Source: Anadara kagoshimensis (Eukaryota; Mollusca; Bivalvia; Arcoida; Arcidae). From it: DNA of 64,000 bases. A model generated the notes under the pieces. It was not told the DNA's origin and did not search any database. It saw only the letters and a program-made list of their open reading frames with translations. Positions 16,001-42,400 of the stretch are shown here, piece by piece. The stretch is from NCBI GenBank assembly GCA_021292105.1, contig CM037874.1, positions 36,692,185-36,756,184 on the forward strand, in the 5' to 3' direction. How positions within the stretch are numbered: position 1 is the first letter of the stretch; each line of letters begins with the position of its first letter. Both the position numbers and the translations under genes were made by a program.

Positions 16001-19000
16001 GGGTGTACTGGACTAAAAAGGTCAGTCACTACGCTATGTGAATACATTTGAGCAGGGGCATCGGGTGTCAAATGCCATGTCCCCAAGCACATGGCTAATT
16101 TGCATACGAACTACGGTATCGATATCCGTCCTACACAACTTCACGAGTCACAAACGATTTATCAACATAGCCATTAACTTGTAAATAAACTTCTTCTTTC
16201 AGTTTCGTATCACATTTTTGGGAATAATCTTTGATTTCTTCTTTTTTTGTTATGCATAATTTCGCTACCGGCAAACTGACAGGAAAGAATTTTAATACCC
16301 AATGAAAGCGGGAAAATCCTCGTGACGTTATGATGAATATTAATGAACCAGGTCGGGATATCCCAAACACGAAATATTATTGACAATCAATTTTTCATAA
16401 ATATATATAATTTATCATCAAATGTGATCCATGTTTAAAGTTATTTAAGTTAAAAATTGTTTAATGAGCATACTTTGTGTTTATTTATCGATGTCACTTT
16501 GCGTAAATTAAAAAAATCCAATATGGCGGCGACTGTAAAACAACCACATGTACAGCACTGTAGGTCAAAAAGAATAACGTCGGCGCCAACTGACAAGATC
16601 GTCATTTTTGTTGGGTTTTCCGAGGGGCGTATACTTTATGGATTTTTATGGTTTTTATCTTAAAATTATCATACAAAAGTGAAGAATTAAAATATAATCC
16701 AGCAATATCAATTACGGACTAATACGCGTATGAATACATTTCAGATCGGCACATGTGTCCATGATAAAAACATTGCTTTCGCAACTTTCCGGGAGACCCA
16801 ATCACTCAGATTAGAGTTTATACATACCTGGGATACCGTATATGGAAATTCCCGTAATTTCAGTCGAAACAAAGGATTTGATTAGCTGTCAAGGTGAAAT
16901 GAGAGCGGCGCTAAATACGAAAAAATCCAACGATCGCTATAAAGCATTCAGCATGGCTGATGCTTTAAAAACAGAAGAGATACAATTCTTCTGGCCTTTA
17001 TAAACAAGTAACCCTTATATGGAGGTTGCCTTTAAGGCAGGTTGGACTGTATATACTTTCAAGACTGTCAAATACTTAAAGTACCTTATTCATCTGAACT
17101 ATGTTTTTCATCCACAATGTTGCATTTCAGTTTCACTTTTTTAATTTGATGTTTTTATTTTGACTTATTTTCAATGTTAAAATCAAGAACCCTTGATTTT
17201 TACTGAAAACAATCTCAAAAGTTCCCATCCCATTTCAAACAATTTTATTCCTAGGACTACATGAAATATCAATCCAATGATGGAATCAAAACCAAACATA
17301 CCAATCCATGTCCAAATCCCAGTCTTAACAGCAAAATAACAGAAACTGGCTAATTAAAATAAACATGTGAACTTTCAACAGAGACCCGAGGCTGGGTAGT
17401 CTGGGTTAGCACCTCCTGTTTAGCTATCTTAAATTCACGACAAGAGTTGGTTATATAATTACATGTATATCATAGCATAATGTGTTTGGAGTTAAAACTT
17501 GCAGGAATATACAATATGTTCAATATACATTAAAATTTTCAACCAGTCCTTGTCTTGGTATTTTCTAATGTGTATGTGTGTGGTTTTTTTTATGTTTTGT
17601 TTTTTTTTACACTCAAGTCAAATATTTTTCACTTATATTGAGATGGACAGGTCAGAACTGGTGGAGGAAACAGGAGAGGTTCGAAGAAAAGCATCAACCT
17701 TGAGCATGCAAACTGACAAACTTTCTCACATCGTGAGTGGGATTCAAAGCTAGGCAGTTCGAACCACTGTGATCCATAATTGCCTGCTTTAGGCACCACT
17801 AGGCCATAGTGGCCCCTATTGTGGTAAAGGAGACTCTTGAAAAAGGAATGGGTCATTCCCAAAAGTAAGCAGTTTTGGACTCTGGGACTGGCTGTTAGTT
17901 TGAACACAGAGGCACCTATTTTTGGTACATGTATAATAAAGGAGACTCTTAAAAAAGTAAGAGGTCATCCCTAAAAGTAACCAGTCTTGGACTGTGGGAC
18001 AGGCTGTTAGTTTGAACACTGAATGAAGTAAAAAACATCATTTTACCTGTCCAGTTTGTATGTCTTTACCAGAATCTGTTGAATATTTAACATATACACC
18101 AAGTGGTTGACCAGAATCACTCTCTGACTTCTTGTTACAGACGGTACACTGTAGATATTGTATAAAACACTCTGTAACAGGATCCCAGGTACTGTTTAAT
18201 GTCACCCCTATAAGACAATTTACAAAAGCATTGTTAAAAATATTTCACTGCAATTCATCAGAACATTGGGGATACAGGAGTGATTTAATGAGGTTTAGTG
18301 TCCCAGTCAAGATTTTTAGTAATATTGATTGAGGAAATTGTTTTATCTAGAGAAAACCATGGACCCGCAGCAAGCAAATTAAACTTTTTTTTCACATTAG
18401 GTCCGTTAAAATCTAGATTTAAACTTAGGCAGTTAGAGGCATTGTGGTTCTTAAGGGCACACTTTAACCACTCTCCAACTTCTGTTTACAGACAGTAGAT
18501 ACTGTATAAAGCACTCGGTAACAAGATTCCAGGCAATGTTTAACATCACGCCCAAAGGCATAGGACTATCACTGTATAGTTGATTGAATAGAGTTTTATG
18601 TCCAAGTCAAGAATATTTCACATTTATCAAGATGTCACCAGCTAAAGGTGCAGTGGAACAATTTTTACCATTAAGCTAGGTTTCCACAAATTTGAAATCA
18701 TTAGTAGCCAAATTTCCAAAATTTGTGAAAATATAGTCCTTTTTAAAGTATTTTTCCATGATTTTGCTAAAATAGGTTACTTTTTGAAAGAATCTCTCAA
18801 AAATTAGTAGCCAATGGCGATTTTGGCTACCAGGAATGGAAACATAGATTAAGTGCATTCTGGGCAATGTGCAGGGAGGAATCTTTAACGTGCCTGGACA
18901 TCCAGGACACAGGACACCAGTTTCTAAGGTCTCTTCCAAAAGAACCGTGATTTTTATTTCCAAATGCTGAGTGCTTGGCTAAAGAACAGTCACTACTTAT

Positions 19001-19831
19001 TTCTTGGTAAGACCTAGCCAGGATTCAAATCCAAAACTCCTAAATACAAAGTGAGCACTCTTCCAACTGAGCTACCATAGTGGCAAATCACTCTAAAAAC
19101 TACACTGTGATTTATAAGAACAATGCAAATAAAGTCGAGTGGAGTGGGGTAATGGTGTTTTATACCCGAGTAAAGATTATTTTACTTCTATCAACATGAT
19201 CAAGGAGGTCAGTTCAGAGATGATGGAGGAGACTGAGTTCCTGGAGAAAACCATTAATGTTTGGCAAGAGAAAATTATTATTTCTATGAAGTTCAATGTA
19301 AAGCTCATGGGCGATTTTCTGGACACAAAAATTTGATGGTAAATATTAAACTCCATATCTCAGTAACTCACTTTCCCACATGTGGTCCGAGCTGGACTTG
19401 AACTCACAGCAGTGAAAGATCCAGGATTTGTAGTCTGACGTCTTATTCATTAGGCCAATGCAGCCTCTAAAACCACTGCCAGTGGTATTAAGGTAATCTT
19501 ACAACAAATTACATACATGTACATGAACCTAACAAAACTAGAACTGTCTCTTAAGAGACAAATACCCTCCGCCCCCAACATTTAAAGTTTTCCTGTGACC
19601 TTGACCTTTCCGATATGACCTTGGTTCAAGGTCATGACACACCTTTGGGCCATGAAGATTATTCATGTGAAGTTTCATGAGAGTCGTCCAAAGCATGAGA
19701 TATGGCCCGGACACAATTTTACACGGACAGGCAGACAGATGGACAGACAGACATGGTGATTCCTATATACCCCCCTAAAACTAGTTTGCAGGGGGTATAA
19801 TCATCAGCAAACCACAATAGCTCACTTGCAT

Positions 19832-19874
<43 letters not shown>

Positions 19875-22800
19875 ATTAACTTACCGTCCACAGAATATTG
19901 TACCACAGCCAATGCTTCTGTTACATTCAAATCATTAACAAAAATTACTGAAATATTCTTCTGCTTAGACAGGGGCTTTACAAACTCAGGATAGCGCCGC
20001 CTTCTTTCAAAACCTAAAGAAAAGGAATAAAAAAGATATTATGCTCCAAGTTGTCAAAACTAAACTATACTCATTATTACTAAAATCCTGTTTTCCTGAG
20101 ATTGTGGCCACATTTTTTAAAAAAAATTATAATTTATTCTAGGGGTGTGCGATATTACCGGTATATTGCGGTATGGCAGGGACGATACAATATACCGGTA
20201 CGCAAAATAAAAAACCGGTATACCGCGGAAATTTTAAAAAATCAGTAGATTATGCTTTACGGTCATTACTAAAAAGGCTGTAATATAATTTTTATCTCGT
20301 AAGTGTTTGTCAACTACATACAAAATAAAGCGCGTCTGAGATACAGACATGTATACATGTTATAACCGATAATGGCAGACGACGAAGTAAAACTTGTCAA
20401 AAACAAACGAGCGAAGGCAAAATTGTGGGAACATTTTAAATTTAGGCAAATAGTGGGGACTATTAATGAAAATATAGCAGTATGCACTGTCTGTAATGCA
20501 GACGTTAAATATGCTGGGGGTACAAGTAATCTTACTTCGCACATTTGCCGCCATCACCCAACTTGGATGCCGGTTCGTTTATCTTTTAAGCATTCATTAA
20601 CGTTGCAATATATTGCAATATGTATTGCAATATTTTCTCAAATATTGCAATATATTGCAATATGCTCTTTTCCCCAATACCCACCCCTAATTTATTCCAG
20701 TTGTGTAAATTTATTAGGAAGTGACCTAATGTACAATTTAAGTCTTTGCTCAAAATCTTATTTCAAAAAGTCTGTTAAATTTTCAATTTTATTTCAAACT
20801 GAAAAATGTCTATTCTCAACAACACCACCTTTTTATCCTTAAAAGGGATGATGTTACAACAATTGTGTGACATCATAAATGGCGGTGTCGATGTAACAAA
20901 GCTTGCAATATGACAAACTGATTCTGGAAACCTAGCACTGGATCAAAGTTTGTGTGCAAATATTGCAACATATTGCATGCTAACACCTCAGAATTTATTT
21001 TTAATTTCTATGCAAAGCATATATTGACACAGACCTTTTGTTAATTCTTCATCCTCTATGTGTGTTTCCATTATTTTTTTTACTACATCATCTCGTTTAT
21101 ATTCTTTCAATTCCTTAAAGAACACTTCATATGCTTTCTGCTTGTTCTTTTTCAGAAGCGTGTCTAGGAACTTTCGGTTTTTATTTTCCGTCGTAGCTTC
21201 GTGTAACACTAGTTCTCTATCATTCTGATCAAACGCTCCTTCAGAGTACATGCCGTCTAAAAGTTCTACTAAGTTTGTGTCTTTAACAATCCATTTGTAA
21301 TTTTTAGTTATTTTTTTCTTTAAATTCTTTGCAGCAGTTGTAGCCATTCCACCTGAAAAATGTAAAGGTAACCCCAGTCAAAATTCATTCACTTGTAATG
21401 GGAGACCAGTTCTCAGATGGTGGAGGAAACTGGAGTGCCGGGAGAAAACAACTGATCTTTACCAAGCAAATGGACAAAAAGTGAAACCAGTATTAACATG
21501 ATCATCACTAAGCAAGCAAATTATCCTGCAAGGTTTTTTTTTCAAATGATTATTTTGGCTAAAACAGCAAAATAAAAAAAACCCCAGAATTCCTTGACCA
21601 AATAATACACAGATTTGATTGAACCTGACCTGTATTTAATAAATTATGAAAAATAGAGTTATGGTCCTTGTTAACTGCATTAATCTTTATCAGGATCTAG
21701 TTTCATGTTGATATCTCGAATAGTTTTTGTGTTATGCTTCAGACAAAATTATGATGGACGGACAAATGAACGGACAGACAAAGGGGCTGCGATCTTCATG
21801 CTCTCCTTTTGAGGAGCATAAAAAATATGAAAAAGTTATTGCTCATAAAAACAAAAGCATGATGGATAGTCATGATGAACAAAGGTGTGTGAAGTAATGG
21901 TATTTTATGCCCTAATTCAGATTCTTTCACTTTTATTCAGGAGTTCGGCTCTCAAATGCTTTTGAGCTGCTTCTTAATAGTACTACTGTATTTCCATAAA
22001 TTGAGTGCACATGGTTTTTATTATTTATTTCTTTTAATTCAAAATGTTTCCATTAAACTATCAATAAAATGCATTTAAAATGCACTGACATAACCAAATT
22101 ATATTTTTAATTAAAAACAGCATTGTTCAGTTCTCCTGTACATAGAGAAATTTTGGAAATTTGATCAAGTTTATACACCAATTGGCCCTCATTCAAAGTT
22201 ACATCAGCGAAAATTTTGGAAATTTGATCAAGTTTATACACCAATTGGCCCTCATTCAAAGTTACATCAGGGCATTTAGGGTCAGGTATGTCATTGTTGT
22301 TCGTTTTTTTTTTCCAGGTGTGATTATCATGAATATTCTAATTATGACATAACGTTTATAGTTGTTCCAAGTAAGAAGGTACAGAAGGGATAATTTTGAC
22401 ATAGTCATATTTGTTGTTTTGTTAAAAAGTTAAAAAATTGCTATGTGAACAGAATTAATTTTACTTTTGGATGACTAAAAAGTATTTTTTCCTATTACTA
22501 ATAGGTCAGTATATTTTGTATTAAGTTTTTATAATTTTTGTGAGTTTGTTGGAAAATACGACTTTATTCTTGCATTTTTCATGTGCACTGAATTTGTGGA
22601 AATACAGTCGCAGGACATTTTACTGATTACATTTAAACAGCCATGGTTCCCACACTTGACTTGATTCAAAATTCTCTGGACCCAGTTCTTCAGAGCTTGA
22701 TTAGTTTAATTAATGGATTTGTCAAAATTTTAATTTTTTTTTAAAATTGAAATTTTGACAGCCATCTATTGAGTCCTGTTTGCCATATAACATCATCAGG

Positions 22801-25800
22801 TGTGATTTTTACATGGAGATAAACCTCTTTTTTAAAACAGCAATGTTCAAATTGATAAAAATTTCAAAATAAAATTCTGCCAATGTCTTTCAAAGCCCCA
22901 TGTAAACTCATATTTACCGTCAAGGTGAGGTACTAAAATTTTCCCACACAGAGAACATGTTAACTTCGTCTTCTTTTCTGCTACCTACAAAATCATAAAG
23001 AATCATATCAAAATCAAACACACTGACCGTGGTCAAACCACAATCCCAAAGCAAAGTAAAATCTTTGAAGTTGGCAAATTACATGTAAGTTAAACACATG
23101 GACTTTCTCCAGGGAAGTGAGGCTGGGTGGTCCAGAAGGGTAAGCACCTCTTGTTTAGCTAGCTACACCCACCACACATGTAATACAAACTGAGAATCAA
23201 TTAGTCAGTTTTGAGATGCTGGAGGATACTGGAAAACTCAGACCAGTGACTTTGTTACATTTTTACAACAGATTAGTAAATTGGTGGGGAGAGAAGCTGT
23301 GATTAATGTATATAAGCAATGATAAATACGGGGAACAGTTATTTTAAGCAGAAAATGGTCTAATACTACATGTACTTTTGTAAGACCCATATGGTGAACA
23401 ATGATTTTGGGTAGAAAAAGTACTCATACCCAATGTACCACTATTTGGACAATTTCAAAAATTTTACAAATGAAACTAGAACTTTCTCTTGAGAGCCCCA
23501 CCACCCTGACCCTTCCTATATGACCTTGGTTCAAGTTCATGACACACCTCTGGACCATGAAGATTATTCATGTGAAGTTTTATGATAGTCGTCCCAAGCA
23601 TCTATGAATCACACATGAAGAAAAGTTGGTTTTCAGTAACCACCAGCAAAATTAACAAATCTTGACATGATTACCTTATTCTCTTTTGTATTATCAATGC
23701 CGTCAAGGAAGTCCACGCCTTTCACTCTTTTTGCTTTCCCTCGGTTCCGACTCAGTGTTCGTCTTTTCACACCTCGCCCACTTCTTCTTGTTTTCAGCAG
23801 CATTTCCTCCTCTATTCTGGTCTCGACCTCATCATGTTCCTCTACACCAATTCCCTCCCCTGCTACAGACTTGTTGATATCACCGGAGTTAATTTTTTCA
23901 TCAGACGTTTCAGTTAAAACATTAGAATTATCTATATTACCATGGTTACTGATGTCAACAGATTCACAATAACCCTGTTTAGTTTCGATTTTTCTATCTT
24001 CTTTTTTTGACAATGAAACTTCATGTATTTCCTTTAATGACTTTGGTTGCAGGTCAGTTCCAATATTTAATTTTGCCTTAGCTAGACATTTTTTAAAGAT
24101 GGGTTTCTTTTGAATACGTACAGGATTTCCTTTACCGATTCTTTTTTCTTTCTCTCCTCCTGTTACATCATTTTCCACAGTCAAATTACCATCAATCTCC
24201 ATGCTCTTCTGGCTATCAGAATCAAACAAGTTCGGAGAACTACAAGATGGCACATTCAACGACCCAGAACTCGTATCTGTCGCTGCAGATGTATCCGACT
24301 TAGTAGGGGTAGTTTTATTTGGTAATTTACAGAATTTGAAAAGCGAACTAGATGTGGTCCCTGATGTGTCTAGTTGTGCCAAACTGTCATTTTTGGACAA
24401 TTTGAAAAGGGAACTAGATGTGGTCCTTGATGTGTCTAGTTGTCCTGAACTGTCATTTTTGGGCAATTTGAAAAGGGAACTAGATGTGGTCCTTGATGTG
24501 TCTAGTTGTCCTGATGAACTGTCATTTTTGGACGACATGTCAGAGTTTGAGGTTTTTACAGAATGGCTACCCGCAGAACTGGTGGGTTGGACAGCTGGAA
24601 GTTTGGCATCTATTTCCTTGGTGGAGAGGTCTTGATTAGTCTTGCTGGAATCTAAATGTATAAAGTATGAAAATATAATATTTACAAAACCTTTTGTATC
24701 ACTGAGACCAAATGTAATTATAGCAGTATCATTACCATTGCTAAAGTGACGTCACCAATTTCTTGCTCAGGTCTATATGCATGGCGTCATTGATTGGCTG
24801 TTCCAGTAACTGGGAATGCATGTTGTGGCCGCCAGTATTTTAAAGTTATTTCTAGGATTATAAAACCAAAATAAGATTTTCAGATTTAAAAAATATATCT
24901 GAAATGTAAATTTCACTGTCCAGATATGGCATTTATAGTGCTATAACCTCCATCAATTATAACCTTCTAGTGTGCATTATTCAGTTTACTTACCCCAGTT
25001 ACATTTGTAATGTTTATATAATGTTTATACTGTAAAAGTATTAAATTTCACATGTATTTATTTTCGTGGTATAGGAAATTTAGACATATCCGCATATTTC
25101 AATTTTCATTTTTTGAAATGTGCAACAATAACACAATAAGCATAATATAATTTTCGCACAAAACAAACGACCTTGGAATAGGCAAAAATTAGTCCACCAC
25201 GAAAATAAATAAGTTTACAGTACAGTTGAATCTCGTTATCTCGAACTCGGATATCTCGAACTACCGGATATCTCGAACTTTTTAAAAAAGTCCGAACAGA
25301 GTTGTTCTTTATTAAACCAAAATCACTCCGGTTATCTCGAACTCGGATATCTCGAATTATCGGATATGTCGAACAATATTTTCGTCCCCTTGAATGAAAA
25401 TCCTAGGAAAATTACACTCGTTAATTCGAACAAAAAATTTAGGAAAATTAAATTTGTTAACTCGAACAAAAAATTTAGGAAAATTAATTTGTTACTCGAA
25501 CAAAAAATTTAGGAAAATTAATTTGTTACTCGAACAAAAAATTTTGAGAAATCAAATTTGTCAGCGCCTACAGATTTTTTGGTAGAAAAAACACATTCCG
25601 AGTCGACACAAATAAAATATTTGACTGTCGGCCTCGTGTTGATTTTAAAATTACAACATTGCACTGACCTCCCAATTTCCTTAAGCCCTTAATTATTATC
25701 CCTTGCATAAGCAATTAAACCATCATGGGGATTAGCAGGTGTTATAATTACTGCCAAGCTGAACATGGCTTCCGAAAACGTGTGATGTGAACATTACTCA

Positions 25801-39445: not shown

Positions 39446-42400
39446 TTGTAAGCTTTTTAAAATTAATCATATAGTCTTTCAAACAATTTTTTTTTTTTTG
39501 TAGAAATAATGGCATTAATTTCAATTCAACTTCTTTTCACATGTACAAATTAAGAATAATACTTTTATGTTTTCAAAAATATTTTGTGCAACGCATCAAT
39601 TCAATTTACTTGGGCTAGAATGAAAATTTTTCTCTAGCTTTAACAGTTTCAACCATCCACTTCAAAATTAGCATGTTTTGCAGACACAATTGGCAAAATA
39701 TGACACATCAATTTTGAAATTTCCTTGACTCTCAACCATCACTCTTGAACATCTAGACAGGGTTTGACACTAACTTTTTTCAACAGTAGCCCACAGGGAC
39801 AGTAGCTGTTTGAAATCACAAGCCCTGCTTGAAAGTTGAGTTGTCTGTCTGGGTCATGTCCTGTTCCCCCTTCGACCCCCGAAAAAATTGGAAAAATGGA
39901 GCAAAATCCTGCAATCTGGAGAAGTTTAGATAATGATTATATATTCATTGGGTCTAAAAAGATCTGTATTGAGAATATGATCTAATTGTTTTGAGATAAA
40001 CTACTAGCCTATTAGGCTACTGGTAATACAAGAATCACCAGTCCTGACCAATTTTTACTAGCCTCAGGCTAGCGGGCTAGTGTTCATGGTGTTATTGTCG
40101 ATCCCTGCTAGATGTTATTTTGCTTTAGTTCAGTGTTTTTCCTAGAATTCCAGTACTGATACCTCAATCTAAGAGAACTAATCTGTAGAGCTGTCATTGA
40201 TAGGAATTTAAATATTGATGTATCAAAAAATATATTGATAAATCAATATATCAAAAATGTGATTAAAATAGTTTACTTTTTTGTTGAATCTTTTATAGAA
40301 AAATTATTTTTCACCAATATTTGACATGTCTGGTGTCATCTTAAATGTTTCTAATATTATATGCACTCCGTTTTGTATGTCAGTTGGTTTTGAGATACCT
40401 TGAAAATATAGGTTGTAATTATAATACATTTACAACAAGTTTAATCTATGTGCCATCAACTACTCCAACCATGGCCATGAACTGGCGGCCATTTTTGTTG
40501 ATATTGATACTCAAAAAATGTATTGATATATCATATCAATTGCTTTTATCGATGATACATCAATATATAAATCTATCAATGACAGCCTTACTAATCTGAA
40601 TGGTTAAAAATACAAGCAACAGAGAATGGCATTTTTTATAAATATAAAATACCTCACAAACATTAAACACTAACATCCCAGCTCATCTTGAAAACTATAA
40701 GATTCCATGGTCTTGTAAACTGCTTGTAATGACCCATTGTTAGGTCCTCTACCAATGGCACCAACCCAAACCTGTATCACAGAAAAGTTTTAAATTACAA
40801 ACCTGTCTATAAAGGTCATCCAAAGGAAGAAGTAAGAATGGCCTTTATGGGCAGGTGGCCTTTATATACAGGGTTAAAAAAATATGAATAAAGAACAATT
40901 GGGATACATTTCTATTGGCTTTTATAAGCAGGTGGTCTTTAAGGTGGGTCGGACTGTACTAAAATTATGAATTAGAAAATGGAATTAGGTCAAATGTCAA
41001 GGTCATCACTGCCATCAGGTTATATTATATATATGTGTGTGCGTGTTTATTATAAAAATGTAATAATGTTTCCATTTTTTTTCATTTCCATCATTTACTT
41101 GTTGATTACAACTTACATTATCAGGTATGAACATGGTTTGTAAAATAATTGGCACTAGGTCAATTGTCAAGGTCATAGGTATTACTGTATTGTGAAACAT
41201 GGACCTTTTTATATTATGATAATAGCTAGCCTCTAACACATAAGAAATGACACTAGGTCAAATGCAAATGCCAGGTTATCACCTTCATTTGCTGACCTGT
41301 TTATCTTGATAAATATAAATAGCATCCAATTGTATGCAGATGACATAAGTCTTATCTCCCACAGACACCAAGATGCCCAAGAAAAGTTAAGCCGTCTTTC
41401 AGAAGAAGCAATGAAGACTGGCCTCCAAATCAACATCAGAAAGACCCAAGTCATGAGGATTAACAACCAAACAGAAGACCCAGTGCAGCTACACCAAGAA
41501 AACATCAAGGAAGCCGACAAGTTTGTTTACCTGGGCAGTGTCATCAGTAAAGATGGGGGTACAGACAAAGACATCAAGTGCCGCATCAACAAAGCCAGAT
41601 TCACTTTCAACTCCCTTCGACCAATCTGGAGATCAACAGCACTCTCAATAAGAAACAAGATCCGGATCTTCAATACCAACGTCAAGTCCATCCTACTATA
41701 TGGTTCAGAAACCTGGAGGGTAACCAAGACCAACACCAACAAACTCCAGTCATTTATAAACAGATGCCTCAGGAACATCCTCAACATCAGATGGCCTGAA
41801 GTTGTCTCAAACCAACAACTATGGGACAGGACCAGACAAGTTCCAATCGAGGCTGAAATCAGGAAACGAAAGTGGGGATGGATTGGCCTGTATCAAATGC
41901 CACCAGGCAGGCTCTTGACTGGAACCCTCAAGGGAAAAGGAAGAGAGGCCGGCCTAAACAGACTTGGCACAGGAGTATTGACACATAGGCACAAACAGCG
42001 GGAAAGACTTGGGCTGAACTGAAGAAGATAGCCCAGAACCGTGTCAGATGGAGAGGTGTTGTTGCAGCCCTTTGTTCCCCAGGGAATCAAGAGGAATAAG
42101 TCAAGTGTATAAGAAATGGAACTTGGTCAAATGTCAAGGTCATGGTCATCAGTGTCATTATGTAATACACTGACCTGTTTATCCAGTATGCCATGGTTAC
42201 TGTAGATGCATAAGAAATGGAACAAGGTTAGTGTCATCATGTAATATACTGACCTGTTTACACTGTAAAACATGGTTAGTCTGCAACTGTATAAAAATGG
42301 AACTAGGTCAAAGGTCAAGCCCATCACTGTCATCATGTAATTCACTGACCTGTTTATCCTGTATGACATAGTTAGCCTTCAAATGTAAGTAGTAAAGACA

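Follow-up and report, generated by a model that had tools for sequence, protein, structure and literature searches.

A reading frame for a caspase recruitment domain (CARD) lies in an intron of what is probably the gene of the DNA-repair helicase FANCJ (BRIP1) in the bivalve Anadara kagoshimensis, and this raises the question whether the domain belongs to the helicase or to a gene of its own lodged in the intron. We know of no CARD in FANCJ. The literature search found no paper naming FANCJ together with 'caspase recruitment domain', and the papers retrieved with BRIP1 and 'CARD domain' were on cancer, obesity or toxicogenomics. The window, i.e. the whole 64,000-nucleotide stretch that was analysed, is G000:C18:36692185-36756184, from a genome of 1.115 Gb in 36 contigs.

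The host gene was recognized by its helicase exons, which are on the minus strand. The DEAH exon near 52.4 kb matched the Fanconi anemia group J protein (PDB 9ej9, E=5e-9), and the GRCIRH exon near 31.6 kb matched the Pfam family Helicase_C_2. From the helicase the exon phases, read by eye, chain through exons at about 30.5, 28.5 and 27.5-26.7 kb and then continue, in order of descending coordinates, through the four tail exons of Table 1. These were assigned to FANCJ because they lie on the same strand as the helicase exons and continue their phases. Profile and protein searches gave no significant match for the exons at 22918 and 20013, relatives of the last tail exons could not be recognised, and a protein search with the tail, meant to show whether other bivalves have the CARD, yielded no FANCJ homologue at E<=1 among 217 candidates. 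A terminal FANCJ exon was looked for and not found. The tail (18047-22984, minus strand) carries two CxxC pairs distributed over three exons and has no Pfam match above the cut-off; it may be an undescribed zinc-binding domain. Within the FANCJ exon span, at 41237-42022 on the plus strand, there is also a reverse-transcriptase-like fragment with the motif YADDISL, which we take to be that of a reverse transcriptase, the fragment presumably being the remnant of a non-LTR retroelement. Rfam, used at the gathering threshold, reported two tRNA matches elsewhere in the window.

Table 1. Features of the CARD locus in the window (position 1 is the first letter of the window)
Feature	Position	Strand	Evidence
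FANCJ-assigned tail exon, S/T-rich	23675..24651	-	strand and phase
FANCJ-assigned tail exon upstream of the CARD	22918..22984	-	strand and phase
Splice acceptor (GTTACCTTTACATTTTTCAG)	21353..21372	-	sequence and weight matrix
5' leader and ATG (GTGGAATG), first bases past the acceptor	21345..21352	-	GTGGAATGGCT common to 6/6 C6 relatives
CARD-only reading frame, ATG to TGA, 119 codons and stop	20988..21347	-	ORF; Pfam CARD at residues 12-92, E 2.8e-11
CARD domain proper (PF00619)	21072..21314	-	residues 12-92; genome search, G000:C18:36713256-36713498
Phase-1 donor AAG/GTCTGT	21029..21037	-	weight matrix; split glycine codon same in 7/7 aligned CARD frames
BED zinc-finger fragment, same intron as the CARD, treated as unrelated	20372..20596	+	Pfam zf-BED, 4.5e-10
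FANCJ-assigned tail exon downstream of the CARD	19885..20013	-	strand and phase
Next FANCJ-assigned tail exon, second CxxC (LQCTVCNKK)	18047..18207	-	strand and phase

Judged by its sequence, the frame at 21035-21352 on the minus strand is a genuine CARD. The first-pass annotation had proposed this from the pattern of the translation, and a Pfam search bore it out, with 43.7 bits for PF00619 against a cut-off of 23.9. The same annotation had placed the frame on the FANCJ strand, which agrees with the flanking exons chaining in phase to the helicase exons. Between the exon borders 22918 and 20013 a frame of 129 codons is open from 21377 to the stop at 20988; at the base composition of the intron, a frame of this length has a probability of about 3e-5 per start point, and this value and the Pfam score rule out a chance open frame. 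From the ATG at 21347 to the TGA ending at 20988 the frame has 119 codons, with a start and a stop of its own, and it encodes little beyond the CARD. In a search of the PDB the best solved relatives by sequence were the CARDs of CARD8 (E 0.005); matches to glutathione transferases (E 0.05 and above) were taken as chance. A weak structure model, built on a two-sequence alignment and having a mean pLDDT of only 51, placed helices at residues 4-23, 26-35, 41-50, 54-67, 69-76 and 85-94, which would have a CARD-like spacing, and a seventh helix at 100-118.

The coordinates, the splice motifs, phase 1 at both borders and the location of the ATG 5 nt inside the acceptor were all found as first described. 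The acceptor at 21352 reads TTTTTCAG/GTGGAATGG, and the donor after 21035 reads AAAAG/GTCTGT. With a simple weight matrix of our own, the acceptor obtained 6.1 bits, above 99.8% of the minus-strand AG sites, and the donor 1.4 bits, above 94.7% of the minus-strand GT sites. The FANCJ exon end at 22918 and the exon start at 20013 are both in phase 1, and if FANCJ, CARD and FANCJ are joined, the 1-1 phases fit and the frame contains no stop.

A family from which the CARD could have been derived had been thought plausible, and kin were indeed present in the same genome. A profile search listed 92 CARD places across the genome, and 25 places were reached at E<=1 when the CARD frame itself was the query. 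The nearest kin are three exons on contig C6 (type C6-B), 62-64% identical over 106 residues (E 2e-37 to 2e-36), followed by three C6-A exons at 49-50%, four exons on contig C12 at 32-34% and then weak ones. The C6-B exon starts with gtag/GAAGTGGAATGGCT, and its frame reads EQG/GTTTGT. About 1 kb past the C6-B CARD, in 3/3 C6 copies, there is a Death-domain frame (GASGNSWR...) with a phase-1 acceptor (AACAG/GTGCC), which alone scored 22.9 bits with Pfam Death (cut-off 22.6). When the C6 CARD and Death frames were joined, with three read-through residues left between them, the scores were 44.1 bits for CARD and 26.4 bits for Death. The joined protein matched, weakly, the CARDs of CARD8, NOD1 and RAIDD (E 6e-5 to 7e-3) and PIDD Death domains (E 0.001 and 0.0055) in the PDB. 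With this predicted splice structure, the C6 genes look like a CARD-Death adaptor of the RAIDD/CRADD kind, and the window exon is thus kin to what looks like the first coding exon of such an adaptor. On C6 the exons form three CARD-A, CARD-B, Death clusters, at 63.64, 63.84 and 64.39 Mb (L032, L036, L035, L046, L069-L071). In 2/3 copies the CARD-A exon contains an in-frame TAA. A tblastn search revealed no Death frame between CARD-A and CARD-B in L032 and L036. The C12 exons, at 12.2 and 13.5 Mb (L028, L029, L030), are tandem pairs of seemingly internal CARD exons in phase 1 on both sides, and for one of them the protein collection contains a close relative, P0002.

The ends of the exon proved informative. 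The window and 6/6 C6 CARD exons of both types have the leader with the start codon and the following alanine codon (ATG GCT), GTGGAATGGCT, in identical form, although 50/99 third codon positions differ between the window and C6-B. The ATG is offset from the acceptor by 8 nt in C6-B and by 5 nt in the window. Because of this identity the window ATG is most simply seen as an inherited start, and what had been taken as a phase-1 acceptor is most simply an untranslated 5' leader, as in C6-B. At the other end, the glycine codon split by the donor is identical in 7/7 aligned CARD frames (the window, P0001, two C6-B, one C6-A and two C12, the second C12 row being trimmed at the glycine). The window donor, at 1.40 bits, scores no worse than that of C6-B (1.09 bits, same matrix), and its weakness is therefore no argument against its use.

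The 1-1 symmetry had been read as the mark of a shuffled internal cassette. This is not supported, as ATG and leader are common to the C6-B exon: with the acceptor phase accounted for by the leader, the symmetry reduces to one coincidence, that the donor phase equals the phase of the host intron, and this match could easily be due to chance. The frame has an N-terminal CARD and an ATG of its own, which would serve as start, and it looks like a first coding exon, probably with its own start, rather than like a spare part of the helicase. Against a first-exon reading, internal 1-1 CARD exons seem to exist in this genome, namely both C12 types, whose two ends are in phase 1 and which lack an ATG close by. 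Among 24 CARD frames of the genome that were looked at, several carry an ATG soon after an AG resembling an acceptor. With its strong acceptor and a donor no worse than that of C6-B, splicing at both ends of the window frame is plausible. Past the donor glycine, the frame runs into a stop after 14 codons.

A Death exon that could partner the window CARD was not met in searches of the window and the genome. In the window, tblastn with the Death exon gave a best E of 0.62, with a stop inside the match, and Pfam detected Death in 0/7 of the frames submitted (7 of the 49 frames listed on the minus strand below 21000, each 55 codons or longer). The genome search with the C6 Death exon yielded, among the best candidates scored, nine places at E<=10, none of them on C18. 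None of the three routes thus found a Death exon for the window, and as far as searched the window CARD exon is an orphan.

The window and C6-B sequences differ at 24, 19 and 50 of 99 codons in codon positions 1, 2 and 3, respectively, corresponding to a pN of 0.19 and a saturated pS of 0.82. When C6-A (L046) was used as outgroup and one gap codon was left out, the changes found only in the window numbered 15, 10 and 32 at the three positions (binomial p 3e-4 against equal shares). Because these changes are mostly in third positions, the window lineage must have evolved for much of its past under constraint on the protein. Among 5.8 billion proteins only one was close: P0001, with 114 amino acids and 91% identity, from a single 999-base contig (source 'lgn'). 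Within its first 113 residues it has 10 differences from the window frame, which all fall into the stretch from residue 37 to residue 99; it has the same start ATG and continues past the donor with an identical LCQYMLCI. The tail past the donor is conserved for only these 8 residues between the two and is not conserved with C6. P0001 was not found in this genome when searched with the CARD frame, and must therefore come from another species or strain; since it reads through the donor, its source is genomic DNA or unspliced RNA and not a spliced FANCJ message. A rough yardstick is provided by the C12 pair L028/P0002, which differs in 4/96 CARD residues and in 8/73 residues of the read-through intron in front, although P0001 and P0002 may be of different origin. 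By this yardstick the 10/113 of P0001 is nearer to the intron figure, though its difference from 4/96 is not significant (p 0.27).

The rest of the intron has little in common with the CARD loci. In a blastn comparison of the intron with 68 loci, the C6 match was confined to the exon stretch 21029-21313, and there was one 56-base match elsewhere. Origin of the CARD from a tandem repeat or transposon was rejected: after 25 of 26 inverted-repeat pairs had been judged, those spanning the CARD were short, A+T-rich and at most 88% complementary. The BED zinc-finger fragment (Table 1) is presumably the remnant of a hAT-type transposase. The intron also contains an exact 60-nt tandem duplication at 22148-22270, with a start-to-start spacing of 63.

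Our preferred reading, to which we assign a probability of roughly 45 per cent, is that an orphan CARD exon from a CARD-Death adaptor is nested in the FANCJ intron and most likely encodes a stand-alone CARD-only protein. The first-pass annotation had mentioned a nested gene as the alternative, and the shared ATG leader now makes it the better reading. The first coding exon of a RAIDD/CRADD-like adaptor would long ago have been copied, in sense orientation, into the FANCJ tail intron and would have kept its ATG. Reading through the donor to the stop 14 codons on would yield a 119-residue protein, translated either from a transcript of the exon's own or from one of FANCJ. This protein might touch the adaptor, or the caspase that partners it, CARD to CARD and act as a decoy or modulator. 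The exon could also be a decaying orphan, functional for long and now an unexpressed intron relic. That only one copy of this similarity exists outside C6 and no Death exon was found near it, that homology to the compared loci is almost confined to the exon, and that P0001 differs at a near intron-like rate would all be expected of a relic, and the TAA in 2/3 C6-A exons tells that decay occurs in this CARD family. Yet nothing in the frame, the ATG, the acceptor or the donor is broken, the window lineage has its third-position bias, and a second source, P0001, keeps the frame open; we regard a relic as rather unlikely.

Two further readings bring the CARD into a FANCJ product. As a cassette exon it would in some transcripts be joined to 22918 on one side and to 20013 on the other, and the tail of the resulting helicase isoform would contain a CARD. 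The common strand, the strong acceptor, the fitting 1-1 phases and the joined frame without a stop are in line with this, as are the weak donors elsewhere in this FANCJ gene model and the C12 CARD exons that look like internal 1-1 exons. The ATG leader common to the C6 CARD exons speaks against it, and so does the location between the CxxC pairs LTCSLCGK and LQCTVCNK, where 106 additional residues would split a possible zinc unit; moreover, no FANCJ sequence adjoins P0001, although the contig of 999 bases that carries it may be genomic. A cassette therefore appears quite improbable. Alternatively, a promoter in the intron could drive a transcript that starts at the CARD ATG and is spliced from 21035 to 20013, giving an N-terminal CARD joined to the FANCJ tail without the helicase. 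This arrangement would explain both the shared ATG leader and the shared phase-1 donor glycine, the downstream acceptor at 20013 is in phase 1, and the frame was under selection; of the splice models it best fits the two shared ends. Considering that P0001 reads through the donor and that the first CxxC pair would be missing from the FANCJ part of the fusion, we give it only a small chance of being right.

RAIDD links PIDD to caspase-2, and in mammals this route is tied to DNA damage. The PIDDosome has been described (PMC7836458), and RAIDD/CRADD homologues are reported in a mussel (PMC7836458) and in Aplysia (PMC9334734). The window exon resembles RAIDD/CRADD in being a CARD exon with a start codon and a phase-1 end, and its C6 paralogs carry a CARD and a Death domain that matches PIDD Death domains. 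It differs in that the window copy had no Death exon in our searches, and the likeness of the C6 genes is one of domain matches. CARD-only proteins are familiar from vertebrates, where CARD16, CARD17 and CARD18 are derived from caspase-1. Like these, the predicted product would be a small single-CARD protein from the duplicated first part of a CARD signalling gene; in contrast to them, the window CARD is kin to a CARD-Death adaptor and lies inside a helicase gene, one that shares with FANCJ/BRIP1 the identified helicase exons. That FANCJ gained a RAIDD-type CARD, as an alternative first exon or a cassette, and thereby coupled the helicase to a caspase-2-type death pathway, we consider rather unlikely; if true, a repair helicase would be physically coupled to a death pathway that itself responds to DNA damage. 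In any case, an intact, long-constrained RAIDD-type CARD exon inside what is probably a DNA-repair helicase gene is a concrete case of CARD exon dispersal.
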